The notes under the pieces: generated by a model
Databases searched by the model: none
Told to the model about the DNA's origin: nothing
What the model saw: the letters and a program-made list of their open reading frames with translations, nothing else
Assembly (NCBI GenBank): GCA_019689975.1
Contig: JADGGK010000026.1
Location: 1 to 37,812, forward strand
Direction: 5' to 3'
Source: Pseudolabrys sp.
Lineage (GTDB): Bacteria > Pseudomonadota > Alphaproteobacteria > Rhizobiales > Xanthobacteraceae
DNA: 37,812 bases
Part shown: positions 2,451-37,812 of the stretch, one piece after another
Layout: each line of letters begins with the position of its first letter
Position numbering within the stretch: position 1 is the first letter of the stretch
Made by a program: the position numbers and the translations under genes

Positions 2451-2458
2451 TGCAGTCG

Positions 2459-20545: not shown

Positions 20546-21680
20546 ATGCGCGCGGAAATCCAGAATGTCGTCGACGAGATCAAGCGGTCGCTCGGACTGC
20601 TGAGGAGGCATCTTTGACGTCGATGCCGCCACGCGGCGTCTCGCCGAACTGAACAAGGAAGCGGAAGAACCCGGGCTCTGGAACGACCAGTCGCGGGCGC
20701 AGCGGCTCATGCGCGAGCGCGACGCGCTCGAGGACCAGCTGAACGCCATCGCCCGCATCGAGCGCGAACTCGACGACAATCTCCTCCTGATCGAGCTCGG
20801 CGAAGCCGAGAAGGACGACAAGACCGTCAGCGAGGCCGAGGCGGCGCTCCGGCGGCTCAAAACCGAGGTCGCGCGGCGGGAGCTGGAAGCGCTATTGTCC
20901 GGCGAGGCCGACGCCAATGACTGCTATCTCGAGGTCCACGCCGGCGCGGGCGGCACCGAGAGCCAAGACTGGGCCAGCATGCTGATGCGCATGTATGTGC
21001 GCTGGGCGGAGCAGCACGGCTACAAGGTCGAATGGATTGAGGAGACCGAAGGCGAAGGCGCCGGCATCAAATCGGCGACCGTCATGGTGAAGGGGCACAA
21101 TGCCTATGGTTGGCTCAAGAGCGAGCACGGCGTGCATAGGCTCGTGCGCATTTCGCCGTTCGATGCCAATGCGCGGCGACATACCTCTTTTGCCAGCGTG
21201 AACGTCTATCCGGTGGTGGATGACCGCATCAAGATCGATATCAACGAGAAGGACGTCCGCGTCGACGTCATGCGGTCGGGCGGCGCCGGCGGCCAGCACG
21301 TCAACAAGACCGAGTCGGCGGTGCGGCTGACGCACATCCCCACCAATATCGTGGTGAAATGCCAGAGCGATCGCTCGCAGCACCGCAACCGCGCCATGGC
21401 GTGGGACATGCTGCGCGCGAAGCTGTTCGAGATCGAGATGAGGAAACGCGAGGAGAAGGCTGCGGCCGAACAGGCGGCCAAGACCGATATCGGATGGGGC
21501 CACCAGATTCGTTCATACGTGCTGCAGCCCTACCAGATGGTGAAGGATCTGCGGACGGGCGTGTCGACCTCCAATACCAGCGCGGTGCTGGACGGCGATC
21601 TCGACCAGTTCATGCAGGCGGCGCTCGCGCAGAAGGCCTTCGGCGGCGCGCCGGTCGCGGTCGAGGACGATGCCGAATAG
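20546..21680 (+). CDS. prfB: Peptide chain release factor 2, expressed by programmed +1 frameshift
   Basis: RF2 recognises UGA and UAA stop codons and triggers peptide release. Reading starts at ATG 20546 ([15 protein letters not shown]...) and runs 23 codons to CTT at 20612-20614, followed by in-frame TGA at 20615-20617. Skipping T20615 continues in the +1 frame from GAC 20616 to 21680, giving about 377 aa. The site AGGAGG CAT CTT TGA C has the Shine-Dalgarno-like element (20603-20608) at exactly the spacing of the E. coli prfB autoregulatory site. The shifted frame contains the anticodon tripeptide SPF ([10 protein letters not shown]) and the catalytic GGQ ([14 protein letters not shown]). 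Low RF2 favours the shift, so the gene controls its own level. Confidence 0.96.
20603..20618 (+). promoter_or_regulatory. prfB recoding site (AGGAGG...CTT TGA C)
   Basis: An internal Shine-Dalgarno-like AGGAGG (20603-20608) is followed by CAT, the slippery CTT and the RF2-read stop TGA, then C. All four elements of the classical prfB +1 frameshift signal are present, and the downstream +1 frame encodes the rest of RF2. Confidence 0.95.
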
Positions 21681-21693
21681 GTCGACCGGATGA

Positions 21694-21708
21694 CGCGGCC
21701 TTGCCGCG
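21694..21708. terminator. Possible hairpin terminator between convergent prfB and M23 gene
   Basis: CGCGGC (21694-21699), a 3-nt loop and GCCGCG (21703-21708) form a perfect 6-bp stem in the 57-bp gap between converging genes. There is no T-run on either strand, so an intrinsic terminator is only a guess. Confidence 0.3.
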
Positions 21709-21737
21709 CGAACCCCGCCGCGCCGGCCGTCCCCCGG

Positions 21738-23066
21738 CTACATCGCGCCGAGCCTGATCCCGGCGCGCAGATATTTCTGCGGGTCGACGGGTTCGTCGCG
21801 CACGCGGGTTTCATAATGGAGATGCGGTCCGGTGGAACGACCGGTCGATCCGATCTTGCCGATCACCTGGCCGATGCGGATCCTTTGACCGACCTTGACG
21901 TCGATCTCCGACAGGTGGCCGTAGCGCGTGGCAAGACCGTTGCCGTGGTCGATCTCCACCATGTTGCCGTAGCCGCCGTCCCAGCCCGCGACGGTCACGC
22001 GCCCCTCGGCGGTGGCACGCACCGGTTCGCCATAATCGCCGCGCAGGTCGATCCCGGTGTGCATCGCCGGCCGACCGAGAAAGGGGTCGGTACGAACGCC
22101 GAAAGGCGAGCTCATGTCGACCGCCCCTTCGACCGGCTTGCGGATCGGGACGGTCGCCAGCGCGCGCGTGTAGGTGTCGATCTGCGCCTGCGCGAGATTG
22201 ATGCGGTATAGCTGCCGCTCGAAGGTACCGGCATCGGCGCGCGGCGGCTTGATCGGCACGAACGGGCCGCCGATCGCCCTCTTCACCTGGCTCTTGGGAT
22301 CGACGCCGAGCTCGTCGAGCACGCTGCGCATGCGCCGCGCCTTGCTGTCGAACCGCTGTTCGAGATCGGTGACCAGCAAAGTCTGCTTACGCTCCACCTC
22401 GTCGAGCGCACGGGACACGCGCTGCAGCAGCCCGTCGAGACCCTTGCCGTCGCCGCGCGCGGCAAGCCGCGCAGGGCGAGGCGGCGCTTCGCGCGATATG
22501 AGCCGTGCCTCGCGGTCCGGCGGCGCCCGAAAGATCACCGTGTCGCTGATCGGCGAGGGACGCGCGCTCTTCGTCGTTTCGGCCTCGGAGTCGCGCGGCC
22601 GATGCAGGGAGCCGGTCGTCATGAGCGTGTTGCCGAGCGCATTGGTGCGGCTCTCGAGCATCGTCTGCCGTTGCAGCAATGCGTTGAGTTTCTGCTCGAA
22701 TTGCTCCTGGTCGAGGAGCTGTCGGCTGGTGATGCGATCGACCTGCGCGCGCAGCTCGGCGATGCGGTCCTCGTAAGCGGTCTGCATCTCGGCCTGGCGG
22801 GCGATGAGACGCGTCAGCACGTCGTCGTGGAAGGCGAAATAGGTTCCGGTCGCGATCGACCACAGCGCCATGATCACCAGCGTGCCGACCACAATCCAGA
22901 ACACGACCGGCCCGATACGCACCTGATGGCCGCGATGCACCAGCACGTAGCCCTCGTGCGTGCGCTGGATCTTGCGCGAAACGGCGGCTGCCGCGTGCGG
23001 ATGCACCGGCGCGCGGCGCGGACCGTGACCGGCAGAGGGCTGAAAGGAGGCGATGGAATGCGACAT
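21738..23066 (-). CDS. M23 (LytM-type) peptidoglycan metallopeptidase, membrane-anchored
   Basis: This 442-aa inner-membrane protein has its C-terminal peptidase in the periplasm. A cytoplasmic basic N-terminus precedes one transmembrane helix (about 50-72, GPVVFWIVVGTLVIMALW). A coiled-coil segment follows (about 85-140), then a linker. The LytM/M23 domain has zinc ligands H336 and D340 in HTGID and the HLH pair starting at H415 (PHLHYE). The ligand set looks complete, so it is probably active rather than an EnvC/NlpD-like activator. Start ATG 23066 is chosen because the longer frame upstream overlaps the peroxiredoxin gene in another frame. A CtrA-like TTAA-N7-GTAA lies about 68-82 bp upstream. 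Confidence 0.9.
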   Translation of the reverse strand: MSHSIASFQPSAGHGPRRAPVHPHAAAAVSRKIQRTHEGYVLVHRGHQVRIGPVVFWIVVGTLVIMALWSIATGTYFAFHDDVLTRLIARQAEMQTAYEDRIAELRAQVDRITSRQLLDQEQFEQKLNALLQRQTMLESRTNALGNTLMTTGSLHRPRDSEAETTKSARPSPISDTVIFRAPPDREARLISREAPPRPARLAARGDGKGLDGLLQRVSRALDEVERKQTLLVTDLEQRFDSKARRMRSVLDELGVDPKSQVKRAIGGPFVPIKPPRADAGTFERQLYRINLAQAQIDTYTRALATVPIRKPVEGAVDMSSPFGVRTDPFLGRPAMHTGIDLRGDYGEPVRATAEGRVTVAGWDGGYGNMVEIDHGNGLATRYGHLSEIDVKVGQRIRIGQVIGKIGSTGRSTGPHLHYETRVRDEPVDPQKYLRAGIRLGAM

Positions 23067-23133
23067 CGGCACGCTCCGCCGGTTCGGCAGCGCAAGCCGG
23101 AGAACCAGCCGTGCCGATATCAGCCGCACATGG

Positions 23134-23148
23134 TTAAGAAACCGGTAA
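23134..23148. promoter_or_regulatory. Possible CtrA-binding site upstream of the M23 peptidase
   Basis: TTAA-GAAACCG-GTAA matches the alphaproteobacterial CtrA consensus TTAA-N7-TTAA at 7 of 8 positions. It lies 68-82 bp before the M23 peptidase start, between it and the peroxiredoxin gene. CtrA controls cell-cycle and envelope genes in this class, so the position is sensible, but this is a single degenerate match. Confidence 0.35.
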
Positions 23149-23158
23149 TGTCGCTGCG

Positions 23159-23662
23159 TCACCTTCCTGATTCGGACGCCGGCGCGGACAGTTGCAGGGC
23201 GCGGGCCGCCGCGAGCACCTCCTCGGCGTGCCCGTCGACGCGCACCGTCGGCCATGTGCGGACGATGCGGCCCCGAGTATCGATGAGGAAAGTCTTGCGG
23301 ATGACGCCGAGCGATTTGCGGCCGTAAAGCGTCTTTTCGCCCCAGGCCCCATAGGCGGTCAGCATGGCTTTCTTCTCGTCGGAGGCGAGGGTTATGGCGA
23401 GCCGATGCTTGGCCTTGAAGCGTTCCTGCGCGGCGATCGGATCCGCGGAAACGCCGAGGATCTCCGTGCCGGTTTCGGCGAATGCGCGGCGCAGGCGCGA
23501 GAAGGCGAGCGCCTCCCTGGTGCACCCCGGCGTGTCGGCACGGGGAAAGAAATAGAGAACGAGATTGCGACCTCTGAAGTCCTTCAATGCGACCGTGCCC
23601 CCGCCGTCGCGAGGCAGCGTGAAGGCAGGCGCTTTTGATCCTGCAACCGGTTCGCGCGGCAT
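23159..23662 (-). CDS. bcp: BCP/PrxQ-type peroxiredoxin
   Basis: This is a thiol peroxidase of the bacterioferritin-comigratory-protein family that reduces H2O2 and organic hydroperoxides in the cytoplasm. The 167-aa length is normal. The peroxidatic cysteine is C47 in FPRADTPGCTREALAF. The resolving cysteine found five residues later in many PrxQ proteins is absent (alanine or phenylalanine there), so this is probably a 1-Cys or atypical member needing an external thiol. Additional blocks FKAKHRLAITLASDEKK and TFLIDTRGRIVRTW fit the fold. It lies upstream of the M23 peptidase gene on the same strand with about 92 bp between. Confidence 0.93.
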   Translation of the reverse strand: MPREPVAGSKAPAFTLPRDGGGTVALKDFRGRNLVLYFFPRADTPGCTREALAFSRLRRAFAETGTEILGVSADPIAAQERFKAKHRLAITLASDEKKAMLTAYGAWGEKTLYGRKSLGVIRKTFLIDTRGRIVRTWPTVRVDGHAEEVLAAARALQLSAPASESGR

Positions 23663-23821
23663 ATGCCTTCCTTTCGTCGCTTTCCGCCGTTCAATGGGGC
23701 TGATGCCATGCGCTTTTCACCTGCGCAACGGCCACCGCGGGCATGGGTCCGGGATCGTCGCGGCGGTCCGCCGATGCCCGCATGATACGGCACCAGTGGC
23801 ACGAGGGGATGCCCATCGGCG

Positions 23822-26800
23822 ATGACGGGTGACGCACGCCATCGGAGGAGCGTTTTTGCGCCGCTGGGCGGGGGGCACTCGCCGCGTGCGCGGCATGATT
23901 CACATCGCGGTCCGCGGCACGGTCGGCCGCATCGATGGCGGCCAGCGGTCCTTCTGCGACCTTGGCGGGCGCGCGCGCAGCGGTACCTGACGGCGGCCTG
24001 GCGCGGACTTGCGCGCCTTGCAAGGCAGCGCTGGATGCGCCGCATGCTGGTGGCCGCGGGCGCCGCGGCCGCGCTCGTCCTGATGTCGCTCGGGGCGCTC
24101 TGGTGGCGGCTGTCGCAGGGGCCGATCGAGCTTGATGTCGTCACGCCTTGGCTCGTCGCCGCCATCGAAGACAATTTCGGCGGCAAACACACCGTCACCG
24201 TCGGCGGCACCCAGATCGAACGCGACGAGAACGGCGGCACCTCGCTGCGGCTGCGCGACATTGTCGTGCGCGACGCCGACGGCACGGTGGTCGCGAGCGC
24301 GCCGAAAGCGGAGGTGGGTCTGTCCGGATTCAGCCTGCTGCGCGGGCAGATGCGGGCGCAGAGCCTCAACCTCGTCGGCGCGGAAATGTCGGTGCGGATC
24401 GAGAACGACGGGCGCGTCACGGTCTTTGCCGGCGCCGACAAGCGACCGATCGCCACGGCCTTGCCTGCCTCCACGCCGCCTGCCGCGCCGCGGGCGGAGA
24501 GCGCGAAGGCCAATGCGCCCGCGCCGCCGCTCGGCGGGGAGCTTGCCGATGTCGCCGGTCTGCTCGCCTGGATCGATGGGCTCGGCGCGACCGGGCTCGA
24601 CGGCCATGATTTGCGCGAACTCGGCCTCAAGAACGGCCATCTGGTCGTCGACGACCGGCGCAACGGCAAGCATTGGACCTTCGATCGGATCAATGCCAGC
24701 CTGCGGCGGCCGGAGCGGGGCGGCATCGTGTTCCGTCTCGAATCGGACAATCCGCGACGACCTTGGGTGCTGAGCGCTGCCCTGCGCCCGCTCGGCGACG
24801 GACTGCGCGCGGTGGGCATCGAAGCGCGTCAGGTATCGATCCGTGACCTGCTGCTCGCGCTGCGGGTGAAGGAAGGGGATGTCGACGCGGATCTTCCCTT
24901 GTCGGCGAGCATCCGCGCGGAGATCGCAGCCGACGGCACGCTGCGGCTCGTGCAGGGTCAGCTGCTCGTCGGCGCCGGCACCATCGTCGATCGCGGCGGC
25001 TCGCAGGCGGTGACCATCCCGGTCGACCATGGCGACGTGCGGTTCAGCTGGGACGCGGGTCGCCGGCTGCTCGTGGTACCGTTTCAGGTCCAGTCGGCCG
25101 GCAACCAATACACCATGCGCGCGACGGTCGAGGCGCCGGCCGACAACGGCGGGGTATGGCGGGTTGCGATCGGCCGCAACGATCCGGTCATCGATCCCGT
25201 CATTCTCGGACCGTTGGCGGACGACGAGGGCATATCGCTCAATCACGTCAATATTCGCGCGCGCCTCGACACGGTGCGTCGTCGTCTCGACATCGAACAG
25301 GGCGATGTCGGCCGGATCGACACCCGACCGCTGCACAATGTCGGATTCGCCGTGACCGGAAGTGTCGACTACTCGACCCCCGACCCGCATGTTGCCTTCG
25401 GCGTGGCCGCCACGCGCATGCCGATTGCGGTGATGCGACGCCTGTGGCCCGTTCTTGCCGCCGCGCATCTGCGCAAATGGGTCGGGGACCACGTATCTTC
25501 CGGCATCGTCGAGCGCATCGTGATTGCCGGCAACGCGCCGCTGTCGACCTTCGCGAGCGACGGACCGCCCACGCCCGACGACGGCCTGTCCATCGACTTG
25601 GAGACCAGCGCCACCACGTTGAAACCGGTCGCCGACCTTCCCGCCATCCGCGACGCGGATCTGACCGCGCATATCACCGGCCGCACCGCCACGGTCAATC
25701 TCGGCCGCGGCACCGTCGAGGTCGCCCCCGGCCGCAAGCTGAGCATTGCCAACGGCGTGTTCCGCGTCGCCGATACGCATCAAAAGCCGGCCGTCGCGCA
25801 CGTCCAGTTTCGGCTCGATGGCGGAGTTCCGGCGGCCGCCATGCTGCTGCAAAATAATATCTTGCGCGACGAAATGGGCCTTGCGCTCGATCCGGAGTCG
25901 AGTCGCGGCACCGTCGCGACGCAGGTGGCGCTCGATCTGCCGCTCTCGCGCGAGCAGGCGACGGACGCGATCCGCTACGTCATCAATGCGGAACTTGCGA
26001 GCTTTGCCGCCGACAAGATGCTGATGGGGCAGAAGCTGGAGGCTGCCTCCTTGCAGGTGACGGCGGACAATGCCGGCTTTCAGGTCAAGGGCGACGTCAA
26101 AATCAACGGCATCCCTGCCGCCATCGTTCTGAGCCGGCAGAAGAGCGAGCCCGACGCCTTGCTGCAACTCGAAGCCTCGCTCGACGAAGCGGCGCGACGC
26201 CGCCTGGGGATCAATCTGGGCACCACGGTTGCGGGCTCCATTCCGGTCAAGGTCAGCGGCCGCGTCGGCGACAGCCGCGGCGACGACCGCTTCGCCCTCG
26301 AGGCCGATCTGACACCGGTCGCGATCGACGATCTGCTGCCCGGCTGGCAGAAGCCGGCAGGCAAGGCCGCCCGGTTCACCGCGACGCTGACGCGAAGCGA
26401 AAAAACCGCCCGGTTCGACGACATCGCGATTTCCGGTTCGGGCGCCAATGTGAAGGGCAGCGCCGAGGTCGACAATGCGGGCGACCTCGTGTCGGCCAAT
26501 CTGCCCGTCTTTGCGCTCTCGAGCGGCGATAAGATGTCGCTCAAGGCCGAGCGCGGCGGCGACGGCGCGCTGCGCGTGACCATGCGCGGGGACGTCTACG
26601 ACGGGCGCAATTTCGTCAAGTCGGTCCTCGCCGGCCCGGCAGCCGATGCCAAGCGAACGCAGAAACCGACGGATCTCGATCTCGACGTCAAGATCGGCGC
26701 GGTTGCCGGCTACAACGGGGAGACCCTGCGCGGACTCGAGCTCAAGCTCACGCGTCGCAGCGGGCGGATCCGCGTCTTCACGCTGAAGGCCAAGATCGGA

Positions 26801-27451
26801 CGCGACGCGCCGCTGAACGGCGATCTGCGTCTGCGTGCACGCGACCACCATCAGGTGGTCTATCTGGAGACGTCCGATGCCGGCGCGCTGTTCCGTTTCA
26901 CGGACATGTATCCGCGGATGTTCGGCGGCCGCATGTGGCTCGCCATGGATCCGCCGACGCAGGACCACTCGCCGCAGATCGGGCATCTCTATATCGGCGA
27001 TTTCGTCGTGCGCGGCGAACAGGCACTCGAACGCGTCGTTGCCGGCGCGCCCGGCCAGCCGCATGCCGGCGTCGAATTCACCGAGCTGCGTTGCGACTTC
27101 ACCCGTACGCCCGGCTTGATGACCGTGCGCGACGGCGTGGTGCGCGGGCCGCTGGTCGGCGCCACGATCGAAGGCAGCATCGATTACCTGCGCGACGATG
27201 TGCACCTGCGCGGCACCTTCGTGCCGTTCTACGGCCTCAACAACATGTTCGGACAGATTCCGATCGTGGGCTTGTTCCTGGGTGGCGGGAGCAACGAGGG
27301 ACTCGTCGGCGTCGCCTATGAGGCGGTCGGCCCGCCGAGCGCGCCCCGGATAAGCGTCAACATCGCCACCGCCATCGCTCCCGGCCTGCTGCGCAAATTC
27401 GTGCCGAACCCGGGCGCGTTCGACCCCAATGCCTATCAGCCGGAGCGTTGA
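23822..27451 (+). CDS. Large AsmA-like / DUF3971 envelope protein (YhdP/TamB superfamily)
   Basis: This is a very long (1209 aa) membrane-anchored periplasmic protein. A basic cytoplasmic N-terminus (about 1-73) is followed by one transmembrane helix (about 74-96), then a long repetitive beta-rich region with DUF3971-like features and a C-terminal AsmA_2-type domain (FVPFYGLNNMFGQIPIVGLFLGGGSNEGLVG, about 1135-1165). The AsmA/YhdP/TamB family forms elongated grooves thought to carry phospholipids between inner and outer membranes. ATG 23822 is the earliest start; the extended Arg-rich N-terminus suggests that a later start is possible. It converges with tyrS, with only 7 bp between the stop codons. 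Confidence 0.85.
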   Translation: MTGDARHRRSVFAPLGGGHSPRARHDSHRGPRHGRPHRWRPAVLLRPWRARAQRYLTAAWRGLARLARQRWMRRMLVAAGAAAALVLMSLGALWWRLSQGPIELDVVTPWLVAAIEDNFGGKHTVTVGGTQIERDENGGTSLRLRDIVVRDADGTVVASAPKAEVGLSGFSLLRGQMRAQSLNLVGAEMSVRIENDGRVTVFAGADKRPIATALPASTPPAAPRAESAKANAPAPPLGGELADVAGLLAWIDGLGATGLDGHDLRELGLKNGHLVVDDRRNGKHWTFDRINASLRRPERGGIVFRLESDNPRRPWVLSAALRPLGDGLRAVGIEARQVSIRDLLLALRVKEGDVDADLPLSASIRAEIAADGTLRLVQGQLLVGAGTIVDRGGSQAVTIPVDHGDVRFSWDAGRRLLVVPFQVQSAGNQYTMRATVEAPADNGGVWRVAIGRNDPVIDPVILGPLADDEGISLNHVNIRARLDTVRRRLDIEQGDVGRIDTRPLHNVGFAVTGSVDYSTPDPHVAFGVAATRMPIAVMRRLWPVLAAAHLRKWVGDHVSSGIVERIVIAGNAPLSTFASDGPPTPDDGLSIDLETSATTLKPVADLPAIRDADLTAHITGRTATVNLGRGTVEVAPGRKLSIANGVFRVADTHQKPAVAHVQFRLDGGVPAAAMLLQNNILRDEMGLALDPESSRGTVATQVALDLPLSREQATDAIRYVINAELASFAADKMLMGQKLEAASLQVTADNAGFQVKGDVKINGIPAAIVLSRQKSEPDALLQLEASLDEAARRRLGINLGTTVAGSIPVKVSGRVGDSRGDDRFALEADLTPVAIDDLLPGWQKPAGKAARFTATLTRSEKTARFDDIAISGSGANVKGSAEVDNAGDLVSANLPVFALSSGDKMSLKAERGGDGALRVTMRGDVYDGRNFVKSVLAGPAADAKRTQKPTDLDLDVKIGAVAGYNGETLRGLELKLTRRSGRIRVFTLKAKIGRDAPLNGDLRLRARDHHQVVYLETSDAGALFRFTDMYPRMFGGRMWLAMDPPTQDHSPQIGHLYIGDFVVRGEQALERVVAGAPGQPHAGVEFTELRCDFTRTPGLMTVRDGVVRGPLVGATIEGSIDYLRDDVHLRGTFVPFYGLNNMFGQIPIVGLFLGGGSNEGLVGVAYEAVGPPSAPRISVNIATAIAPGLLRKFVPNPGAFDPNAYQPER

Positions 27452-27458
27452 GGCGCGT

Positions 27459-28715
27459 TCATACCGGCTTCAGCAGTACGTGGCGCTTGCGGCCCAGCGA
27501 CAGCTTGATGACGCCGGCGGCGGTAAGGTCGTGGGCCGTCAGGATCATTTTCTCGTCGGCCACCGTGCGGTCGTTGACCCTTAATCCGCCGGACCGGATC
27601 TGACGGCGGGCTTCGCTGTTGGAGGCGACGAGCCCCGCCTTCTCGGCAAAGGCGACGAGCACGCCGAGTCCCCGTTCCAGGTCGGCACGGGCGATCTCGA
27701 CCGTCGGCAAGGTCTCCGCGAGCGTGCCCTCCTCGAAGGTTCGGCGCGCGGTCTCGGCCGCGGCCTCGGCGGCGGCGCGTCCGTGCACCAGGGCGGTTGC
27801 CTCGGTCGCCAGCATCTTCTTCGCCTCGTTGATTTCCGCGCCCTTGAGCGCGGAGAGCCGCGCGATCTCCGACAGCGGGAGCACGGTGAACAGCTTGAGA
27901 AAGCGGACGACGTCGCCGTCTTCGGTGTTGCGCCAGTATTGCCAGTAGTCGTAGGGGCTCACGAGATCGGCATTGAGCCATACCGCGCCGGCGGCCGTCT
28001 TGCCCATCTTGGCGCCCGAGGACGTGGTGATGAGCGGGGAGGTAAGCGCGAAAAGCTGCGCGTTGAGCATGCGGCGGCCGAGGTCGATGCCGTTGACGAT
28101 GTTTCCCCATTGGTCCGAGCCGCCCATCTGCAGGATGCAGCCGTAGCGACGGTGCAGCTCGACGAAATCATAGGCCTGCAGCACCATGTAGTTGAATTCA
28201 AGGAAGGACAGTTCCTGCTGGCGCTCGAGGCGAAGCTTCACCGCATCGAAGGACAGCATGCGATTGACCGAGAAGTGTCGACCGATGTCCCGCAGAAAAT
28301 CGATGTAATTGAGCCGGTTGAGCCAGTCGGCGTTGTTCGCCATGACGGCATTGCCGCCTTCGCCCTCGAATTTGAGGAATCGCGAAAAGATCGCGCGGAT
28401 GCCCTTGAGGTTGCGGTCGATCGCCTCGTCGCTGAGCATGCGGCGGCTCTCGTCCTTGCCGCTCGGGTCGCCGACGCGGGTCGTGCCGCCGCCCATCAGC
28501 ACGATGGGTCGATGGCCGGTCTGCTGCAACCAATAGAGCATCATGATCGGCAGCAGCGAGCCGACGTGCAGCGAGGGCGCGGTGCAGTCGAAACCGATAT
28601 AGGCGGTTATCGTTTCGGACTTCGCCCGCGCATCGAGGGCGTCCGGCTCGGACACCTGGTGGATGAATCCGCGCTCGGCAAGGATGGCGAGGAAATCCGA
28701 TCGGTAAGTGCTCAT
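27459..28715 (-). CDS. tyrS: Tyrosyl-tRNA synthetase
   Basis: This class I synthetase charges tRNA-Tyr. The 418-aa length fits the TyrRS-S type. The HIGH-equivalent motif is HVGS starting at H50 ([12 protein letters not shown]), the tyrosine pocket includes YMVLQAYDF and [11 protein letters not shown], and the KMSKS-equivalent is KMGKT at 236-240. An S4 RNA-binding domain ends the protein ([15 protein letters not shown]). It is divergent from anmK, an association also seen in enterobacteria. A 14-bp palindrome lies 10 bp upstream of its start. All motifs are intact. Confidence 0.98.
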
Positions 28716-28724
28716 GTCAGGACT

Positions 28725-28738
28725 CGCGACCGGTCGCG
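28725..28738. promoter_or_regulatory. 14-bp perfect palindrome between tyrS and anmK
   Basis: CGCGACCGGTCGCG is perfectly self-complementary and lies 10 bp upstream of the tyrS start in the 80-bp divergent gap. It could be an operator or a leader hairpin for tyrS. No T-box features are seen. Confidence 0.35.
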
Positions 28739-28795
28739 TTCCGGCCGCCGCTGGTGTAACAGGTCCGCCGTCGGATTCAACTCAGGGGGTGGTGT

Positions 28796-29911
28796 TTGAC
28801 GGCTGGGGTGGTGGCGGCCATCGGTTTGATGAGCGGGACCTCGCTCGACGGCGTCGACGTGGCGCTGATCGAGACCGACGGCGAGCGCGTCATGGGCTTC
28901 GGCCCGACGGGCTATCGATCTTATTCGGAGGCCGAGCGCGCCCTGTTGCGGCGCGCCTTGGAGGAAGGCTCACGCCTCACCGATCGGCACGCGCGGCCGA
29001 GCGTGCTCGCCGAGGCGGAGGACTTCGTCACCCGGGCGCACGCCGCGACCGTGACGGAGTTTATCGCCCGCAACGGGATCGATCGCACGCGGGTCGCCGT
29101 GGTCGGCTTTCATGGCCAGACCGTGCTGCATCGGCCCGCCGCGGGGCTTACGGTGCAGATCGGCGACGGGAAGGCACTCGCCCGACAAATTGGGCTGCCG
29201 GTGGTCTACGACTTCCGCGCCGCCGACGTGGCCGCCGGAGGCCAGGGCGCGCCGCTGGTGCCGGTCTTTCACCAGGCGCTGGCGCGCGAGCTTGACCGAC
29301 CCCGTCCGATCGCCGTGCTCAATGTCGGCGGCGTCGCCAATCTCACCTATGTGGACGGCGGCGATCCGATTGCCTGTGATACCGGACCCGGCAACGCGCT
29401 GATCGACGATTTCATGCGCGCGCGCACCGGCGCGCCGCTCGATCGCGACGGCGATCAGGCGGCGCGCGGTCGCGTCGATACCGGATTCGTCGCCCGCGTG
29501 CTGGCCGATCCGTTCTTCGACCGCCGCTATCCGAAATCGCTCGATCGCAATTCCTTCTCCTTCGCCAGGATCGGTCTTCCGGAGCTGTCGGTGGCCGACG
29601 GCGCCGCGACCCTGTCGGCGCTGACGGCGGCCGCCGTGGCGCGCGTCGTGCGGCTGCTTCCGGCTCCGCCCAAGGTCTGGATCGTGGCGGGGGGCGGCGC
29701 GCGCAACCCGACCCTGATGCGCATGCTGGCCGAACAGCTCCGACCGGCGAGCGTCGAGACCGCCGAAGCGGCCGGCTGGTCGGCCGACGCCCTGGAAGCG
29801 CAGGCATTCGCCTTTCTCGCGGTGCGCAGCCTGCGTGGCCTGCCGCTCACCTTCCCGACCACGACCGGCGCGCCGCGGCCGCTCGAGGGCGGGCGGCTGG
29901 CGCGGCCTTGA
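28796..29911 (+). CDS. anmK: Anhydro-N-acetylmuramic acid kinase
   Basis: AnmK phosphorylates and opens 1,6-anhydro-MurNAc released during peptidoglycan turnover, giving MurNAc-6-phosphate for recycling. The 371-aa length is normal. Key blocks are GLMSGTSLDGVDVALIE (ATP and substrate loop, 10-26), VGFHGQTVLHRP, VYDFRAADVAAGGQGAPLVP and VLNVGGVANLTYV, followed by CDTGPGNALIDD. The most likely start is TTG 28796, because AGGGGGT lies 5 bp upstream and no ATG fits; GTG codons a few residues later are alternatives. It fits the peptidoglycan genes elsewhere in the window, although it is not in an operon with them. Confidence 0.95.
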   Translation: MTAGVVAAIGLMSGTSLDGVDVALIETDGERVMGFGPTGYRSYSEAERALLRRALEEGSRLTDRHARPSVLAEAEDFVTRAHAATVTEFIARNGIDRTRVAVVGFHGQTVLHRPAAGLTVQIGDGKALARQIGLPVVYDFRAADVAAGGQGAPLVPVFHQALARELDRPRPIAVLNVGGVANLTYVDGGDPIACDTGPGNALIDDFMRARTGAPLDRDGDQAARGRVDTGFVARVLADPFFDRRYPKSLDRNSFSFARIGLPELSVADGAATLSALTAAAVARVVRLLPAPPKVWIVAGGGARNPTLMRMLAEQLRPASVETAEAAGWSADALEAQAFAFLAVRSLRGLPLTFPTTTGAPRPLEGGRLARP

Positions 29912-30012
29912 GCGGCACCCATGGCGGAACTTTTACCCATCCGCGGGCGTAGAATTGACCGGGCCCCATGGCTGGTGCACGGTCTCCGGCCACTTCCAGA
30001 CCACGGCGATCC

Positions 30013-31083
30013 ATGCTGACCGGAGAAATCGCACGGGCGCTCTCGGCGCGCATCGAGGGGGACGAGTCGATCAAGATCGATCGTCTGGTGCATCCGGCCT
30101 GCGCCGAAGGGCCCTCCGATCTCGCGCTGGCAATGAGCCAAGAGGCGGCCGCGGCGCTCGCCGGGAGCAAGGCGCAGGCGGTGGTGGTTCTGGCGAAGAA
30201 CGGCGATCGCTCCTTGCTCGGCGACTTCAAGGCGGTCATTTCGATCGACGAGGCCCGGTCGGCTCTCGCCAAGCTCACGGCGCTGTTCGATCGCGGCCCC
30301 GCGATCGCGGAGGGCGTCCATCCGACGGCGGTGGTCGCGCCCGACGCCGTGATCGGCGAGGGCGTGCGCATCGGCGCTTATAGCGTGATCGGCGCGCGCA
30401 GCAGGATCGGCGCGGCCACGACCATCATGCCGCACGTCACCGTGGGCAGTGGCGTGCGCATCGGTGCCCAATGTTTGTTTCATTCCGGCGTGCGAATTGG
30501 CCACGACGTGGTCATCGGGAACCGCGTCATCGTCCATTCCAACGCCGTCATTGGATCGGACGGTTTCAGCTATGCTCCCGATCTGAACTCTCCCATCGGC
30601 TTCACCGCCGACGTGAAGGTGACGCGCATCCACTCGCTGGGAAATGTCGAGATCGGCGACGACGTCGAGATCGGCGCCGGCACGACCATCGACCGGGCCA
30701 CGGTGCAGACCACCCGGATCGGCCGCGGCACCAAAATCGACAATCTGGTTCATATCGGCCACAATGTGGTCATCGGCGAAAGCTGTATCTTGGCTGGAAT
30801 GGTGGGGATTTCGGGCAGCGTGACGATCGGCGACCGGGTGCGCATCGCCGGGCGGGCGGGAATCAGCGACCATGTGCGGGTGGGCGACGAAGCGGTGATC
30901 GGGCCCGGCTCGGGGGTTGCGACCAACGTAGAAGCCGGCGCCTTCGTCTTGGGCTATCCGGCGATCCCGCGCGAGCGCGCGCTGGAACAATTCGTGTATG
31001 GCGGCCGGCAGAAGCGGCTGCACCGACGAGTGGACGAAATGGCGTCGCGGCTCGACGCATTGGAACGAATGGTAAAGAAATGA
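30013..31083 (+). CDS. lpxD: LpxD-type UDP-3-O-acylglucosamine N-acyltransferase (second-locus form)
   Basis: LpxD transfers a 3-hydroxyacyl chain from ACP to the 2-amino group of the lipid A precursor. The protein has the LpxD uridine-binding N-domain (about 1-95), a left-handed beta-helix of hexapeptide repeats (about 100-300) and a C-terminal helix ([19 protein letters not shown]). The catalytic histidine is likely H250 in [20 protein letters not shown] matches the substrate loop. ATG 30013 (356 aa) begins where family similarity begins; ATG 29968 would add 15 residues. It is not beside bamA, fabZ or lpxA, and is followed by ACP, ketosynthase and SDR genes with overlapping or 1-bp junctions, suggesting a paralogue with a dedicated acyl donor. 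Confidence 0.88.
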
Positions 31084-31100
31084 CAGGGGCCTCAAGCTCG

Positions 31101-31358
31101 ATGAGTGACGTAGCCAACGATGTGATCGCGATCATCGCCAAGAAGGTCCGTGTTCCGAACCATCCCAAGATCGAATTGAGCGATCGGTTGGAGGATCTGG
31201 GGCTGGAGTCGCTCGATGCGGTCGAGATGATTTTCGACCTCGAGGAGAAATTCGACATTCAGATTCCCTACAACGCCAACACGACTCGTACCGAGTTCGA
31301 CACGGTCGGCGACGTGGTCGGCGCCATCCAGAAGCTGGTCGACAAGAAGAATTCCTGA
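31101..31358 (+). CDS. Specialised acyl carrier protein
   Basis: This 85-aa acyl carrier protein holds growing acyl chains on a phosphopantetheine arm. The attachment site is S37 in LGLESLDAVEM; the usual aspartate before the serine (DSL) is glutamate here, a conservative but uncommon change. Helix II (AVEMIFDLEEKFDIQIP) is typical of ACPs. It is not AcpP by length or context and does not match AcpXL well; wording near NodF is closer. ATG 31101 is chosen; ATG 31080 overlaps the lpxD stop (ATGA) and would add seven residues. The ketosynthase begins one base after its stop, so the genes form one translation unit. Confidence 0.9.
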   Translation: MSDVANDVIAIIAKKVRVPNHPKIELSDRLEDLGLESLDAVEMIFDLEEKFDIQIPYNANTTRTEFDTVGDVVGAIQKLVDKKNS

Positions 31359-31359
31359 C

Positions 31360-32574
31360 GTGAACCGCGTCGTCGTCACCGGCCTCGGGGCCGTCACGCC
31401 GCTGGGGCACAACGCCGCCGCCTATTGGGACGGCTTGCAGCGCGGCGTCTCCGGGCTCGGGCCGATCACTCTGTCGGCGACGCCCGAGGAGCTCACGCAG
31501 AAGGTCGTCGCCGAAATCAAGGGATTCGATCCGCTCAAGCATTTCGACGAGCGCGAGCTTCCCACGCTCGACCGCGTCTCGCAGATCGCGATCGTGGCCG
31601 CGCGGGAGGCGATCGCGCAGTCCGGGATCGTCTTCGACCTGTCGCTGTCGGTGCGCACGGCCTGCATCATCGGCAGCGGGGTGGGCGGCATGACGACGCT
31701 CGACGACACCTATCGTCGCGTCTACCGGGACAACAAGAAGCGCGTCTATCCGCTCAGCATCCCCAGGCTGATGGTGAACGCACCGGCAAGCCAGATCTCC
31801 ATGCACTGCGGCCTGCGCGGGCCGGCCTTCGTGGTCGCGAGCGCCTGCGCCTCCGCGACCCACGCGATCGGCCTCGCGTTCCATATGGTGCGGTCGGGGG
31901 CCGTCGAGTGTGCGGTGACCGGAGGGTCGGAGGCATGCATCACCTTCGGGACCATGCGCGGCTGGGAGGCGATGCGGGTGATGGCACCCGAGGTTTGCCG
32001 CCCCTTCTCCATTGGCCGGGAAGGCATGCTCATCGGCGAGGGCGCGGCGGTTCTGGTGCTTGAACCGCTGGAGCGCGCGAAAGCCCGCGGCGCGGACATC
32101 ATCGCCGAAATCGTGGGCTTCGGCATGAGCGCGGACGCCGGCGACCTGACCGCGCCCGACGTCGAGGGCATGTCGCGCGCCATGCAATGGGCGCTCGAAG
32201 ACGCGGGCCTGTCGCCGCAGGACGTGCAATATGTCAACGCCCACGGCACCGGCACGGCCGCCAATGACGAGACGGAGACAAGAGCCTTGCACAAGGTCTT
32301 CGGCAATCATGCAAGGAGCCTTGCAATCTCGTCCACCAAATCAATGGTCGGCCACGCGCTCGGGGCGGCCGGGGCGCTGGAGATGGTGGCGACCGTCATG
32401 GCCGTGCGCGACGGCGTGGCGCCGCCGACCATCGCCTATCTCGGTCCCGATCCGGCCTGCGATCTCGACTATGTTCCCAATGTCGCGCGCAAGATGGATA
32501 TCGACGTGGCGCTGTCGAACTCGTTTGCTTTCGGGGGCCTCAACGCCGTGCTGGTCGCGAAGAAATATTCGTGA
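31360..32574 (+). CDS. Beta-ketoacyl-ACP synthase, FabF/NodE-like
   Basis: This is a condensing enzyme that elongates acyl-ACP with malonyl-ACP. The 404-aa protein has the complete Cys-His-His triad: C163 in VASACASATHAIG, H295 in NAHGTGTAAND and H332 in SMVGHALGAAGALEM, plus K327. The wording of the C-terminal half (NAHGTGTAANDETET, STKSM, PDPACDLDYVPNVARK) resembles NodE and rhizobial FabF-like enzymes more than housekeeping FabF. It starts at GTG 31360, one base after the ACP stop, and overlaps the SDR start by 4 bp. With the ACP it probably makes a dedicated chain, for which the LpxD-type gene upstream is the natural acceptor enzyme. Confidence 0.92.
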   Translation: MNRVVVTGLGAVTPLGHNAAAYWDGLQRGVSGLGPITLSATPEELTQKVVAEIKGFDPLKHFDERELPTLDRVSQIAIVAAREAIAQSGIVFDLSLSVRTACIIGSGVGGMTTLDDTYRRVYRDNKKRVYPLSIPRLMVNAPASQISMHCGLRGPAFVVASACASATHAIGLAFHMVRSGAVECAVTGGSEACITFGTMRGWEAMRVMAPEVCRPFSIGREGMLIGEGAAVLVLEPLERAKARGADIIAEIVGFGMSADAGDLTAPDVEGMSRAMQWALEDAGLSPQDVQYVNAHGTGTAANDETETRALHKVFGNHARSLAISSTKSMVGHALGAAGALEMVATVMAVRDGVAPPTIAYLGPDPACDLDYVPNVARKMDIDVALSNSFAFGGLNAVLVAKKYS

Positions 32575-33341
32575 AACCGGTCATGTTCGACCTTACCGGA
32601 CGCGTCGCCCTGGTCACCGGAGGAAACGGCGGGATCGGTCTCGGCATGGCGAGGGGCCTTGCCGCCGCGGGCGCGAGCATCGTCATCGCCGGCCGTGACG
32701 CGGCCAAGGCGAACCAGGCTTTGGCGGAGCTGACCGCGCTTGGCGCGGCTGCCGCATTCGTTCCGTTCGACGCGTTGCACGAAGCCTCGTGCAAGCAGGC
32801 GATCGCGGCTGCGACGCAAAAATTCGGCCGCCTCGATATCCTCGTCAACAATGCCGGCACCACCGTGCGCAAGCCGCCGCAGGAGATCACCGCCGAGGAG
32901 TGGCGGACCGTGATGGATACCAATCTCTCCGCCGCCTTCTTCTGCTCGCAGGCCGCCTATCCGCACATGGTGAAGGCGGGCGGCGGCAAGATCATCAATA
33001 TCGGCTCGATGATGTCGATCTTCGCGTCGTCCTACGCGGCGCCCTATGCGGCGAGCAAGGCAGGCATCGTGCAGCTGAGCCGCGCGCTCGCCGTCGCGTG
33101 GGCGAAGGACAATATCCAGGTCAACGCCATCCTGCCCGGATGGGTCGACACCCCCCTCACCCCGGCGGCGCGCATCGAGGTGCCGGGACTCAACGAACGC
33201 GTGCTCGCGCGCACGCCCGCCGCGCGGTGGGGATCGCCCGGCGATTTCGCCGGCATTGCCGTGTTCCTGGCGAGCCGCGCCGCCGATTTCATCACCGGCG
33301 CGGCGATCCCGGTCGACGGAGGATATTCGATCCAGACCTAG
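32571..33341 (+). CDS. SDR-family NAD(P)-dependent oxidoreductase (FabG/KduD-like)
   Basis: This 256-aa classical short-chain dehydrogenase has TGGNGGIG (16-23), NNAG (93-96), S146 and Y159-x-x-x-K163 (PYAASKAG). It ends with the usual ITGAAIPVDGGYS. GTG 32571 overlaps the ketosynthase stop (GTGA), which indicates translational coupling; ATG 32583 is an alternative start. By sequence wording it resembles KduD/gluconate-5-dehydrogenase types as much as FabG. By position it is the expected 3-ketoacyl-ACP reductase of the module. Substrate is inferred from context only. Confidence 0.9.
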   Translation: MKPVMFDLTGRVALVTGGNGGIGLGMARGLAAAGASIVIAGRDAAKANQALAELTALGAAAAFVPFDALHEASCKQAIAAATQKFGRLDILVNNAGTTVRKPPQEITAEEWRTVMDTNLSAAFFCSQAAYPHMVKAGGGKIINIGSMMSIFASSYAAPYAASKAGIVQLSRALAVAWAKDNIQVNAILPGWVDTPLTPAARIEVPGLNERVLARTPAARWGSPGDFAGIAVFLASRAADFITGAAIPVDGGYSIQT

Positions 33342-33450
33342 CGGGTCGGAAAAATGGGATAAGGTTGCCGCCACGAGTGAGCTGCGTTCACGCGGTCGGA
33401 AGCGAGTTGTGCAGAAGACCGCTGGCGCGGATCGCGGGGAAGAAATTGAC

Positions 33451-33541
33451 CCGTCGCGGCGAGCGAAGCGAGCCCATCCAGTACCGATCCTGTGATTCCG
33501 GATTGCGTCCTCGCCCCCTCGGGGCTTCCCGCCATGACGGG
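33451..33541. repeat. Diverged palindromic intergenic repeat
   Basis: This lies between the convergent SDR and alpha/beta hydrolase genes. It contains CGGCGAGCGAAGCGAGCCCA, then CATCCAG, and later CCGGATTGCGTCCTCGCCCC followed by CTCGGGGC and CGCCATGACGG. The arrangement of arms matches the 169-436 family with considerable divergence. The rest of 33342-33567 shows nothing recognisable. Possible function is termination between converging transcripts. Confidence 0.55.
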
Positions 33542-33567
33542 TCGGATCAATCCGATCGCAACCTGCT

Positions 33568-34230
33568 CTAAGCCGCGCTCGGCTTGCGCTCCATCTTCAG
33601 CCGCTTGTCGAGATAGGCGCCGATCTGCGCCAGCAGCGTGTCGATCTTGCCGTCGAAGAAGTGATTGGCGCCTGGCACGATCTTCTGCTCGATCACGATG
33701 CCCTTCTGCGTCTTGAGCTTCTCGACCAAGCTCGTGATGTCCTTGTGCGGCACGACGGCGTCCTTGTCGCCATGGATGATCAGACCGGAGGAGGGGCAGG
33801 GTGCAAGGAAGGAAAAGTCGTAGAGATTGGCCGGCGGGCAAATCGAGATGAAACCCTCGATCTCGGGACGGCGCATCAAAAGCTGCATGCCGATCCAGGC
33901 GCCGAAGGAGAAGCCCGCGATCCAACAGCTCTTCGCCTCGGGATTGATGCTCTGCGCCCAGTCGAGCGCCGCGGCCGCGTCCGACAATTCGCCCTGGCCG
34001 TGGTCGAACGAACCCTGGCTCCTGCCCACGCCGCGGAAATTGAAGCGCAGCGCGGAGAAGCCGCGGTGAACGAACGCATAATAGAGTTGATAGATGATCG
34101 GATGGTTCATCGTGCCCCCGAACTGCGGATGGGGGTGCAGGATGATGGCGATAGGCGCATTCTTCTGCCGTGCCGGGTGGTAACGGCCTTCGATGCGTCC
34201 CGCCGGACCGGTAAAGATGACCTCAGGCAT
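33568..34230 (-). CDS. Alpha/beta hydrolase
   Basis: This 220-aa cytoplasmic alpha/beta-fold hydrolase has the oxyanion region LHPHPQFGGTMNHP, the nucleophile elbow GFSFGA (serine near residue 118), an acid in HGDKDAVVPH, and the histidine in GANHFFDG. The protein is in the dienelactone-hydrolase-like/COG2945 group, often annotated simply as alpha/beta hydrolase and frequently found near the suf/isc locus in Rhizobiales. It is divergent from the cysteine desulfurase, sharing a 244-bp intergenic region with an Irr-like box. Substrate is unknown. Confidence 0.9.
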   Translation of the reverse strand: MPEVIFTGPAGRIEGRYHPARQKNAPIAIILHPHPQFGGTMNHPIIYQLYYAFVHRGFSALRFNFRGVGRSQGSFDHGQGELSDAAAALDWAQSINPEAKSCWIAGFSFGAWIGMQLLMRRPEIEGFISICPPANLYDFSFLAPCPSSGLIIHGDKDAVVPHKDITSLVEKLKTQKGIVIEQKIVPGANHFFDGKIDTLLAQIGAYLDKRLKMERKPSAA

Positions 34231-34318
34231 TACCGCTCACCTCGATCGCGACGACCACTTCATCCGCTGGGCGTTTCCGCTCTCGGACCGCCCGGGAACT
34301 CGCCATGTCGCACTCCAG

Positions 34319-34335
34319 TTTAGAGTTATTCCAAT
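34319..34335. promoter_or_regulatory. Irr/ICE-like box upstream of the suf operon
   Basis: TTTAGAGTTATTCCAAT matches 11 of 14 defined positions of the iron-control element TTTAGAA-N3-TTCTAAA bound by Irr in Bradyrhizobium and relatives. It stands out as AT-rich in GC-rich DNA and lies in the gap between the hydrolase and the cysteine desulfurase. Irr control of suf genes is established in Rhizobiales; the site itself is a prediction. TATAAT on the minus strand overlaps its end (34334-34339). Confidence 0.6.
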
Positions 34336-34474
34336 TATATAGATTCCGCTGGTCTGCGGAGCCATTCCGGCTATAAGGTCGCCGGCGGAAACCGGCTTCT
34401 AGCACGATCCGCGCGGCACCACGCAAGTTTTTGCCCGAGCCGGATGCGGAACATGAGTTAGTGACTGCAAGCTC

Positions 34475-35632
34475 ATGATGCAACGGGTTTATTTTGATTG
34501 GAATGCGACGGCGCCGCTGCTTCCCGAGGCGCGGGCGGCGATGATTGCGGCGCTGGAGACGACGGGAAATGCCTCCTCCGTGCATGCCGAAGGCCGGGCG
34601 GCGCGGGCGATCGTCGAACGCGCGCGCGCGCAGGTCGCGGCGCTGGTCGGGGTCGAGCCCAAGCAGGTCACGTTCACGTCCGGCGCCACCGAGGCCAATA
34701 TGCTCGCGCTGACGCCGCATCTCGAGACCGGCGAGGAGCGCGCCCCGCGCGATCGGTTGTTCGTCTCCGCGGTCGAACATCCTTCCGTGATTTGCGGCGG
34801 CCGCTTTGCGCCCGGCGCAAGCGAGACCCTTGCCGTGGATGCCGATGGAATCGTCGACCTTGCCGCCCTCGGCGCCGCTTTGAGTCGGGCCCAACGGCCG
34901 CTGGTGTCGGTGATGCTCGCCAACAACGAAACCGGGGTGATCGCGCCGATCCGGAGGGTGGCCGAGATCGTGCACGCGGCCGGAGGTCTCCTGCACGTCG
35001 ACGCGGCGCAGGCGCCCGGCCGCATCCGCTGCAGGATGGACGAGCTCCATGCCGACCTGATGAGTATTTCCGCCCACAAGCTCGGGGGACCGCAGGGAGT
35101 GGGCGCGCTGATCCGCCGCGCCGATCTCCATGTGGCGGACCCGCTGGTCAAGGGCGGCGGCCAGGAGCGCGGGCTGCGCGCCGGGACCGAAAACGTGGCG
35201 GCCATCGCCGGTTTCGGGGCGGCCGCCGGCATGGCCGCGGCCGCGGATGCGACCCGCATGGCCGCGTTGCGCGATCGGCTCGAAGCGGGAATTCTCGCCG
35301 CCACGCCGGAAGCAATCATCGTCGGCGCCGGGGCGGCGCGGCTGCCCAATACCACGCTCGTCCTGGTCCCGGGAATGAAGGCGGAGACCGCCCTAATCGC
35401 GTTCGATCTCAATGGGATAGCCCTGTCCTCCGGATCCGCCTGTTCGTCCGGCAAGGTGCGGGCCTCGCACGTGCTCGCGGCCATGGGTTTTGCGCCGCCG
35501 CTCGCGCGCGCGGCGCTGCGCATTAGCCTCGGCCGGAGCAGTCAGGAGGCGGAGGTCGATCGGTTCCTGGAAACTTGGAAGATGGTGGTGCGACCACTAC
35601 TTAGTAAGGAGGGACGCGAACTTGCCGCCTAG
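34475..35632 (+). CDS. Cysteine desulfurase, NifS/IscS type
   Basis: This PLP enzyme removes sulfur from cysteine as a persulfide and hands it to the iron-sulfur scaffold. It is 385 aa. The PLP lysine is K202 in SISAHKLGGPQG; the persulfide cysteine is C323 in SSGSACSSGKVRASHVL, the longer loop of group I (NifS/IscS) enzymes rather than SufS. SGATEAN (69-75) and the HVDAAQ segment complete the cofactor site. It is the first gene after the Irr-like box and is followed by sufB after 118 bp, the usual order in Rhizobiales suf operons, where a separate SufS comes later. Two adjacent ATGs (34475, 34478) are possible starts. Confidence 0.95.
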   Translation: MMQRVYFDWNATAPLLPEARAAMIAALETTGNASSVHAEGRAARAIVERARAQVAALVGVEPKQVTFTSGATEANMLALTPHLETGEERAPRDRLFVSAVEHPSVICGGRFAPGASETLAVDADGIVDLAALGAALSRAQRPLVSVMLANNETGVIAPIRRVAEIVHAAGGLLHVDAAQAPGRIRCRMDELHADLMSISAHKLGGPQGVGALIRRADLHVADPLVKGGGQERGLRAGTENVAAIAGFGAAAGMAAAADATRMAALRDRLEAGILAATPEAIIVGAGAARLPNTTLVLVPGMKAETALIAFDLNGIALSSGSACSSGKVRASHVLAAMGFAPPLARAALRISLGRSSQEAEVDRFLETWKMVVRPLLSKEGRELAA

Positions 35633-35750
35633 GCCGAGATTGCGTACCGATCCGTCGACATTGAAACGGGATGATGAGCAGCACCGGGCATAACGCGCCA
35701 TAACCGACAGATCCAACCCGCGGTCCTTGCCACCGTGAGCGGAGGGAAGA

Positions 35751-37231
<1,481 letters not shown>

Positions 37232-37235
<4 letters not shown>

Positions 37236-37717
37236 GCGGTCCCATCATCAATATCGACGAGGTTCCGCTGCGCGAACAGGGCGACGGCGCCAATTTCGTC
37301 GCGAAGTGGGGCAGGGTGGGACCCGAGATCGGCATGACCGGGCTCGGCTGCGCGGTGCACATTGTGCCGCCGGGCAAGAAGGCGTTCCCCTTCCATCGCC
37401 ACCACGTGATCGACGAGATCTTCTTCATCGTGTCCGGCACCGGCGAATACCGCTACGGCGAACGGCGGCTGCCGTTGCGCGCCGGCGATATCGTTGCGGC
37501 GCCGGCCGGCGGCGAGGCCCATCAGATCATCAATACCGGCAAGGAAAACCTGCGCTATCTCGGATTCTCGACCGCTGTCGGCGCCGACATCGTGGAATAT
37601 CCCGACAGCGGCAAGGTGGCGATGGCGGCGGGGATCAAGAATGCCGATTTCCGGACCGCGACATACAAGGCCATGGGTCGTGTCGCGCCGGCCGGCTATT
37701 TCGACGGCGAGAGCTAG
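37232..37717 (+). CDS. Cupin-domain protein coupled to sufB
   Basis: This 161-aa single-domain cupin has the metal-site motif [12 protein letters not shown] (H55, H57/H58, E62) and a second motif [11 protein letters not shown] with H97, a complete 3-His/1-Glu set. No function can be assigned; such cupins may bind metals or small ligands. ATG 37232 overlaps the sufB stop by 4 bp, so it is translated as part of the suf operon, in the place where sufC usually sits. Its stop TAG (37715-37717) falls inside CTAG, where a transposase reading frame on the other strand also ends. The native C-terminus may therefore have been changed by an insertion; length alone cannot show this. Confidence 0.85.
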
Positions 37718-37812
37718 TGGATCGACTCTAACTTTTGGAGCCCACGTTGGACAGCGGCGATGATGCGTTGCGGTTCAGCGGTCCAGATGAAGGGGCGAGG
37801 GTCATCGTTGGT
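37714..37812 (-). CDS. Transposase C-terminus, IS630-like (partial, runs off window)
   Basis: The minus strand is open from the window edge to TAG at 37714-37716. The last residues read TNDDPRPFIWTAEPQ, then RIIAAVQRG, ending in LESIH. The pattern PxPFxWTA...I..AVxRG...L(D/E)SIH is what I know from C-termini of IS630-family transposases. Only 32 residues are visible, so the assignment rests on that pattern. The stop is only a few bases from the presumed element end. Confidence 0.6.
   Translation of the reverse strand, partial: TNDDPRPFIWTAEPQRIIAAVQRGLQKLESIH
37715..37812. mobile_element. End of a probable IS630-type insertion sequence
   Basis: IS630 elements insert at TA, often within CTAG, and duplicate it. 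CTAG is at 37714-37717, exactly where the cupin and transposase frames both stop, so the element end is probably there. The matching end and target duplicate lie outside the window. Confidence 0.5.

Follow-up and report, generated by a model that had tools for sequence, protein, structure and literature searches.

A second LpxD type with a private acyl carrier protein and a NodE-related ketosynthase: a probable lipid A N-acylation unit in a Pseudolabrys genome and in Rhodobacterales

The window analysed here is a whole stretch of 37,812 nucleotides from Pseudolabrys sp. (contig JADGGK010000026.1, positions 1..37,812). Its region 30013..33341 carries genes for a second type of the N-acyltransferase LpxD (LpxD2), a dedicated acyl carrier protein (ACP) and a ketosynthase (KS) related to the nodulation protein NodE. 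We found that the three genes form a conserved unit which, judging from gene content and neighbourhood, very probably serves the N-acylation of lipid A with a private acyl supply. The full account, in which such a unit also takes the KS product unreduced, we regard as probable. The trio is a concrete, testable three-gene candidate for how some alphaproteobacteria build incompletely reduced lipid A.

A preliminary description of this DNA had reported four + strand genes in the region. All four open reading frames (ORFs) are found there, and domain and profile searches back the description's assignment of the first three to LpxD, ACP and a FabF-type KS. LpxD2 (30013-31083, +) scores 285.6 bits on TIGR01853, over the curated cut-off of 242.5. 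Pfam gives no match to PF04613, the N-terminal uridine-binding domain, in this protein; residues 3-353 align to solved LpxDs in the PDB. The catalytic histidine (H239 in E. coli) corresponds to His250 (codon 30760-30762) and is kept in all 98 LpxD2 rows of our alignment. A longer start is available at 29968; homologues begin at 30013. After a gap of 17 bp follows the ACP (31101-31358, +), whose start at 31101 is favoured by homologues over 31080. It matches PF00550 at 37 bits, and its phosphopantetheine serine, Ser37 (31209-31211), is invariant in 25 aligned ACPs of the module. The KS (31360-32574, +), 1 bp further on, contains PF00109 and PF02801 and scores 470.9 on TIGR03150, just under the cut-off of 493.75. 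The motif positions C163 (31846-31848), H295, K327 and H332 are present and presumably have the usual catalytic roles. All three genes are under purifying selection, with synonymous far exceeding non-synonymous change against two genus-mates (G022 and G017): the ratio of non-synonymous to synonymous rates is about 0.20-0.25 for LpxD2, 0.07-0.09 for the ACP and 0.18-0.20 for the KS. These are real genes and an old selected unit.

The preliminary description held that this layout matched nothing known. Among the Rhodobacterales examined it is instead the normal form of the lpxD locus. LpxD, ACP and KS occur in the same order and on the same strand in 59 of 80 named loci, the best 80 of at least 535 relatives, a set biased to near matches and mostly Rhodobacterales; 16 of the 21 others are not labelled Alphaproteobacteria. 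The KS (E<=1e-125) was also found in 182 of the 198 genomes, one per genus, of a family (f74) which we take to be Rhodobacteraceae-like because its KSs fall among those of named Rhodobacterales; among genomes of good quality the count is 168 of 174. In a draw of 385 genomes across the class, LpxD2 (called at >200 bits) is present in 28 genomes besides the window's, after one match at 200.2 bits (G764) was dropped because the tree places it outside. The KS adjoins LpxD2 in 17 of the 27 class-level loci that run past LpxD. One can conceive, as a bare possibility, of chance neighbours, that is, a housekeeping lpxD relocated beside an unrelated ACP and KS. The order kept in 59 of 80 named and 17 of 27 class-level loci speaks against this, as does a second lpxD at bamA in the same genome, and we practically dismiss it.

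The Rhodobacterales loci resemble the window in the order and strand of LpxD2, ACP and KS, and both LpxD2 and KS belong to the same larger clades, within which the window's order and Rhodobacterales form separate subclades. They differ in context: in Rhodobacterales the gene is the sole lpxD of the genomes checked and lies behind a transpeptidase-like gene, whereas in the window it lies behind anmK and coexists with a second LpxD. For example, the annotation of Paracoccus ferrooxidans reads DUF882, peptidoglycan-binding protein, LpxD, ACP and KS. A transpeptidase-like peptidoglycan gene, presumably an L,D-transpeptidase to judge from its SHGCIR motif, was seen in 55 of 84 sources and usually stands immediately upstream of LpxD. 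In most Rhodobacterales loci read (L022-L089) lpxD lies behind this gene and a divergent DUF882 gene, an arrangement that may connect the synthesis of the wall with that of the outer membrane. The window's trio follows anmK, a wall-recycling gene, in the place of the transpeptidase-like gene.

The fourth ORF (32571-33341, +) encodes a short-chain dehydrogenase/reductase (SDR), and the preliminary description had counted it in the module as a FabG-like reductase. Its overlap of 4 bp with the KS gene, or its spacing of 8 bp if ATG 32583 is the start, would suit a four-gene module in which a dedicated ketoreductase makes a 3-hydroxyacyl chain. An SDR is indeed present, but FabG is too specific a name: the protein scores 198.3 bits on the FabG equivalog (cut-off 297.75), and its best model is of KduD type (240.7 bits, under that model's cut-off of 369), so that it lies nearest the sugar-acid (KduD/gluconate dehydrogenase) group. 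LpxD2 occurs in 3 of 35 genomes of the same genus (G017, G018 and G022), each time with anmK before it and the ACP and KS after it. Two of these trio carriers, G017 and G022, lack any SDR match at E<=1e-45. The KS and the SDR of G018 are separated by a gene that, read by eye and not from a database match, encodes a UxaA-like dehydratase, and G010 carries the SDR (69% identity) between anmK and hydrolase with the trio absent (L239). The SDR therefore comes and goes independently, and a four-gene module is quite improbable. With the window SDR as query, no SDR stands next to the KS in any of the 59 named trio loci, of which three end within 75 bp of the KS; three of the 59 have one kilobases away. 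The conserved unit is three genes, not four, and the SDR is a neighbour.

LpxD2 is distinct from the housekeeping enzyme. The window's genome has a further lpxD within a bamA-lpxD-fabZ-lpxA cluster on contig C133, which rules out a relocated housekeeping lpxD. Instead of the sole lpxD and sole FabF-like gene that the preliminary description had considered for such a case, the genome holds two LpxDs, and its KS matches at E<=1e-20 number four, the window KS among them; a fabF-like KS is present as well. The canonical LpxD of the bamA cluster (LpxD1) belongs to the same enzyme family and has the same catalytic histidine; in contrast to LpxD2, it has no private ACP or KS adjoining, it shares only about 38-40% identity with LpxD2, and in a quick tree it forms a clade of its own (support 100) apart from LpxD2 (93). 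The very-long-chain lipid A system acpXL-lpxXL likewise uses a special ACP and KS in the service of lipid A. It differs in that AcpXL is another gene of the window's genome (contig C52, 168 bits), and the KS of that contig groups elsewhere in the tree. The window ACP scores 28.7 bits on the AcpXL model, far under the cut-off of 83, which rules this system out as the identity of the trio; lpxXL itself was not searched for. The idea of a dedicated unit that makes an acyl chain and transfers it to an amino sugar, apart from the bamA cluster and from AcpXL, is supported.

Next, we asked how often LpxD2 is the only LpxD of its genome. We chose 30 of the 80 named loci, 25 with and 5 without the ACP-KS pair, and exactly one LpxD over the cut-off was found in 29 of these 30 genomes. 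The remaining one, a metagenome-assembled genome of Maritimibacter sp. ih11 (G080), has two, and its copy at L030 has no adjoining ACP-KS pair. At class level, 25 of the 28 LpxD2 genomes show no second LpxD over the cut-off, some of the assemblies being incomplete; LpxD1 stands alongside LpxD2 in G547, G750 and G827. A further genome (G526) has an additional sub-threshold LpxD match that contains a stop, and in G706 the LpxD2 itself is just under the cut-off (237.5 against 242.5). Within the window's order, G017 and G022 carry both LpxDs and G270 has one LpxD match only. In G128, bamA and fabZ lie about 90 bp apart with no LpxD1 between them. The LpxD1 of G018 (L194) is without the catalytic histidine and its alignment ends at residue 273 of 362, so that this resident copy appears degenerate; the LpxD2 of the same genome is intact. 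Among 20 loci read, two (G750 and G827) have LpxD2-ACP-KS immediately behind lpxB, and a third (G468) has LpxD2 as the last gene of a bamA-fabZ-lpxA-lpxB cluster. Taken together, the sole-LpxD counts, the loss and decay of LpxD1 and the lpxB linkage indicate that LpxD2 acts as a working alternative to LpxD1 in the lipid A step. Two ancient types of LpxD exist in Alphaproteobacteria and have taken each other's place, and one of the two is frequently accompanied by a ketosynthase of its own.

Accepting substrates had been left wide in the preliminary description (lipid A, another UDP-sugar or a glycolipid). In most carriers checked no LpxD other than LpxD2 passes the cut-off, which makes the usual lipid A precursor the most likely acceptor, and it is most likely the trio that provides the amide-linked chain of this lipid. 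An enzyme that acylates another UDP-amino sugar for a glycolipid other than lipid A would be in keeping with the presence of LpxD1 in the window's genome and with an acceptor site that departs from that of E. coli LpxD at most residues: F41, N44 and, in Rhodobacterales, H276 are mostly altered in LpxD2, which also counts as a point against a role in lipid A. We consider this other acceptor improbable, since LpxD2 is so often the sole LpxD, replaces LpxD1 in G128 and G018 and is linked to lpxB. We know of no lipid A structure for the window's organism or a near relative, and this too weighs on the side of caution. At the position of E. coli His276, LpxD1s of the window's order have His in 39 of 42 cases and Asn in 2, and the LpxD1 of the window's own genome (L001) has an aligned Gly.

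The KS connects the trio with nodulation genes. In the careful tree it falls into a clade that unites KSs linked to LpxD2 with other KSs paired with an ACP, apart from fabF-like KSs (100/100). The sister of this clade (98/93) is a NodE-type clade (100/99), which is made up of KSs from nod clusters, a Mesorhizobium plasmid copy and the KS of an ACP-KS pair in a genome of the window's order. The nod-cluster KSs adjoin an ACP in the context nodB-nodA-nodD1 or beside NodA; we take this ACP and KS to be NodF and NodE, names that the annotation does not give. NodF/NodE thus resemble our genes as an ACP-KS pair beside the gene of an N-acyltransferase for an amino sugar, with NodE in the sister clade. 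They differ in the acyltransferase, which is NodA, in the nodB/nodA/nodD1 context, and in the place of NodE, which the careful tree sets outside the module clade. A quick tree had suggested that NodE is nested inside that clade; the careful tree does not, and we do not claim it. None of the 8 window proteins scanned around the trio is nod-like, a scan that did not extend to the rest of the genome. The NodE-like KSs of its relatives are in keeping with a placement of the window's order as Hyphomicrobiales. The trio gives the nodulation pair a close non-symbiotic relative.

The pair itself is not confined to LpxD2. The module KSs are interspersed with those of ACP-KS pairs that show no LpxD in view, from a genome of the same family, from other proteobacterial classes and from Xanthomonas sacchari, and for this reason a single clade of the 26 LpxD2-linked KSs is rejected (p-AU 0.021). 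In one tree the second KS of G483 (L172), on a long branch, also falls among the LpxD2-linked KSs. The position of these other pairs suggests that the ACP-KS pair is older or more mobile than its association with LpxD2 and has been reused. Pairs akin to both the module and NodF/NodE, with no LpxD in view, were seen in several proteobacterial classes (L306, L317, L294, L299, L301 and L326).

We propose the following mechanism. The KS would condense malonate, borne by the dedicated ACP, with an acyl group of medium chain length, and LpxD2 would move the product to the amino group of UDP-3-O-acyl-glucosamine, as in the normal LpxD step. KS chemistry yields 3-oxoacyl-ACP. Because no ketoreductase is conserved in the unit, it is simplest to suppose that LpxD2 accepts the 3-oxoacyl chain in unreduced form from its private ACP, which we hold to be nearly an even call. 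The KS product, used before reduction, would then become an amide-linked 3-oxoacyl chain as known in Rhodobacter. In the window's bacterium, where both LpxDs are kept, lipid A might have two kinds of amide-linked chain, or the cell might switch between them. The preliminary description had spoken of a "3-hydroxy or modified" chain; of these, we infer that the likelihood of a 3-oxo chain is no lower than that of a 3-hydroxy chain.

This proposal draws on known lipid A structures. The 3-oxo chain of Rhodobacter is amide-linked, and Paracoccus versutus, in which the transpeptidase-like gene, LpxD, ACP and KS stand in a row, also has a 3-oxo chain. R. sphaeroides and R. capsulatus both belong to Rhodobacterales. 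Their lipid A carries 3-oxo fatty acids, is a TLR4 antagonist and was used as a model for Eritoran (PMC5923411). In Spiribacter salinus, amide-linked 3-oxo-14:0 occurs beside 3-hydroxy-10:0 at positions 3 and 3', and the 3-oxo acid of Spiribacter escaped the standard fatty acid procedure (PMC5923411). In searches of openly licensed papers we recognised no report of an LpxD-ACP-KS cluster or of genes for the 3-oxo chain. We tentatively propose, at somewhat less than even confidence, that LpxD2-ACP-KS is the missing genetic source of the Rhodobacter-type 3-oxoacyl chain, with the KS product bypassing FabG on a private ACP, and that NodF/NodE would be a second case of the same under-reduced-chain trick. 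NodF/NodE make polyunsaturated chains by escaping later reduction, and by analogy they would be a precedent for an unreduced chain on a private ACP.

Several observations weigh against an unreduced chain on a private ACP or against the wider role given to the trio. In E. coli LpxD the 3-hydroxyl is held by D232 and Q236, and this enzyme is described as highly specific for 3-hydroxyacyl-ACP (PMC6286764); LpxD2 retains the Asp (D243 in the window) in 97 of 98 rows. The trio was seen in Rhodobacterales and in the one-per-genus sample; for R. sphaeroides and R. capsulatus themselves it is presumed. Lipid A with 3-oxo chains is described also for the gammaproteobacteria Spiribacter and Ectothiorhodospira (PMC5923411), and the few non-alphaproteobacterial KS loci seen (L294, L299, L301, L303 and L326) show no LpxD. 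Related ACP-KS pairs serve other systems. Finally, 9 of the 27 class-level LpxD2 loci that run past LpxD have neither an ACP nor a KS adjoining, and one (G678) has only the ACP; LpxD2 can therefore work without the pair. In Pararhodobacter (L033/L049) too, LpxD2 has no ACP-KS pair beside it.

The specificity of E. coli LpxD, the retained Asp and the LpxD2 loci without a pair would also be in keeping with an ACP-KS pair that sets the chain length or keeps a private pool of ordinary 3-hydroxyacyl-ACP, decoupled from phospholipid synthesis, with housekeeping FabG doing the reduction and LpxD2 transferring a 3-hydroxy chain. This is a real though doubtful possibility. The 3-oxo chains of Rhodobacter (PMC5923411) would not be explained by a fully reduced supply alone. 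Nor is there a sign of a special chain length at the E. coli M290 position: Gly there occurs in 25 of 98 LpxD2s and 21 of 42 LpxD1s and fails as an LpxD2 marker. The other hydroxyl-binding position, E. coli 236, is Q in 49, H in 39 (the window's among them), M in 9 and T in 1 of the 98 LpxD2s, compared with Q in 41 of 42 LpxD1s of the window's order. Such a loosened position fits a changed substrate. His is also common there in LpxDs of other phyla, and because of its occurrence in unrelated LpxDs the position shows no 3-oxo preference and decides nothing. A residue diagnostic of 3-oxo substrates was sought in the alignments of 98 LpxD2 and 42 LpxD1 rows and was not found.

We also followed the trio through the window's own lineage. 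In the same-genus sample its site was read in 30 genus loci of the 38 matches listed: 3 carry the trio, 1 the SDR alone and 9 the hydrolase within 20 bp of anmK, and the rest carry other or unidentified DNA. In one genome (G019), a 40-residue C-terminal piece of KS lies 55 bp behind anmK (62.5% identity, E 3.6e-9) and looks as a deletion scar would. In two genomes of another family of the order (G128 and G270) the trio occupies this site too, flanked by tyrS-anmK on one side and hydrolase-nifS-sufB on the other (tyrS, nifS and sufB being the names we presume for these flanking genes). The six KSs of the window's order form one clade, and so do the six LpxD2s. In an order-wide draw of 397 genomes, a match at the LpxD2 level (>300 bits) was found in only 3, namely the window's own, G128 and G270, the next match scoring 178.8. 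Within the window's lineage the trio is a long-standing resident, and most relatives are without it. A recent gain from Rhodobacterales is rejected as the simplest reading because of the single clade of the order's six loci, the shared site in G128 and G270 and the KS remnant in G019.

The flanks of the site are AnmK, an anhydro-MurNAc kinase (28796..29911, +; PF03702), which is the left neighbour of the trio and is given for context only, and an alpha/beta hydrolase (33568-34230, -), which follows the SDR. The junction between AnmK and the trio measures 104-105 bp in three module-bearing loci, and AnmK is the left neighbour in G018, G128 and G270 as well. The hydrolase follows the KS immediately in G017, 2.3 kb with another ORF intervene in G022, and 2.7 kb of other DNA in G128; in G018 it is outside the stretch read. 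This hydrolase is much better conserved than the genes around it: in the 14 genus loci where its full length aligned, identity is about 86-93%, while AnmK reaches about 72-77% and the NifS-like protein 62-75%. Outside the class, an Acidobacteria genome (BP6.bin107, L101 8001-11810) has an LpxD followed by two ketosynthase-like genes, an association that is apparently independent of the module.

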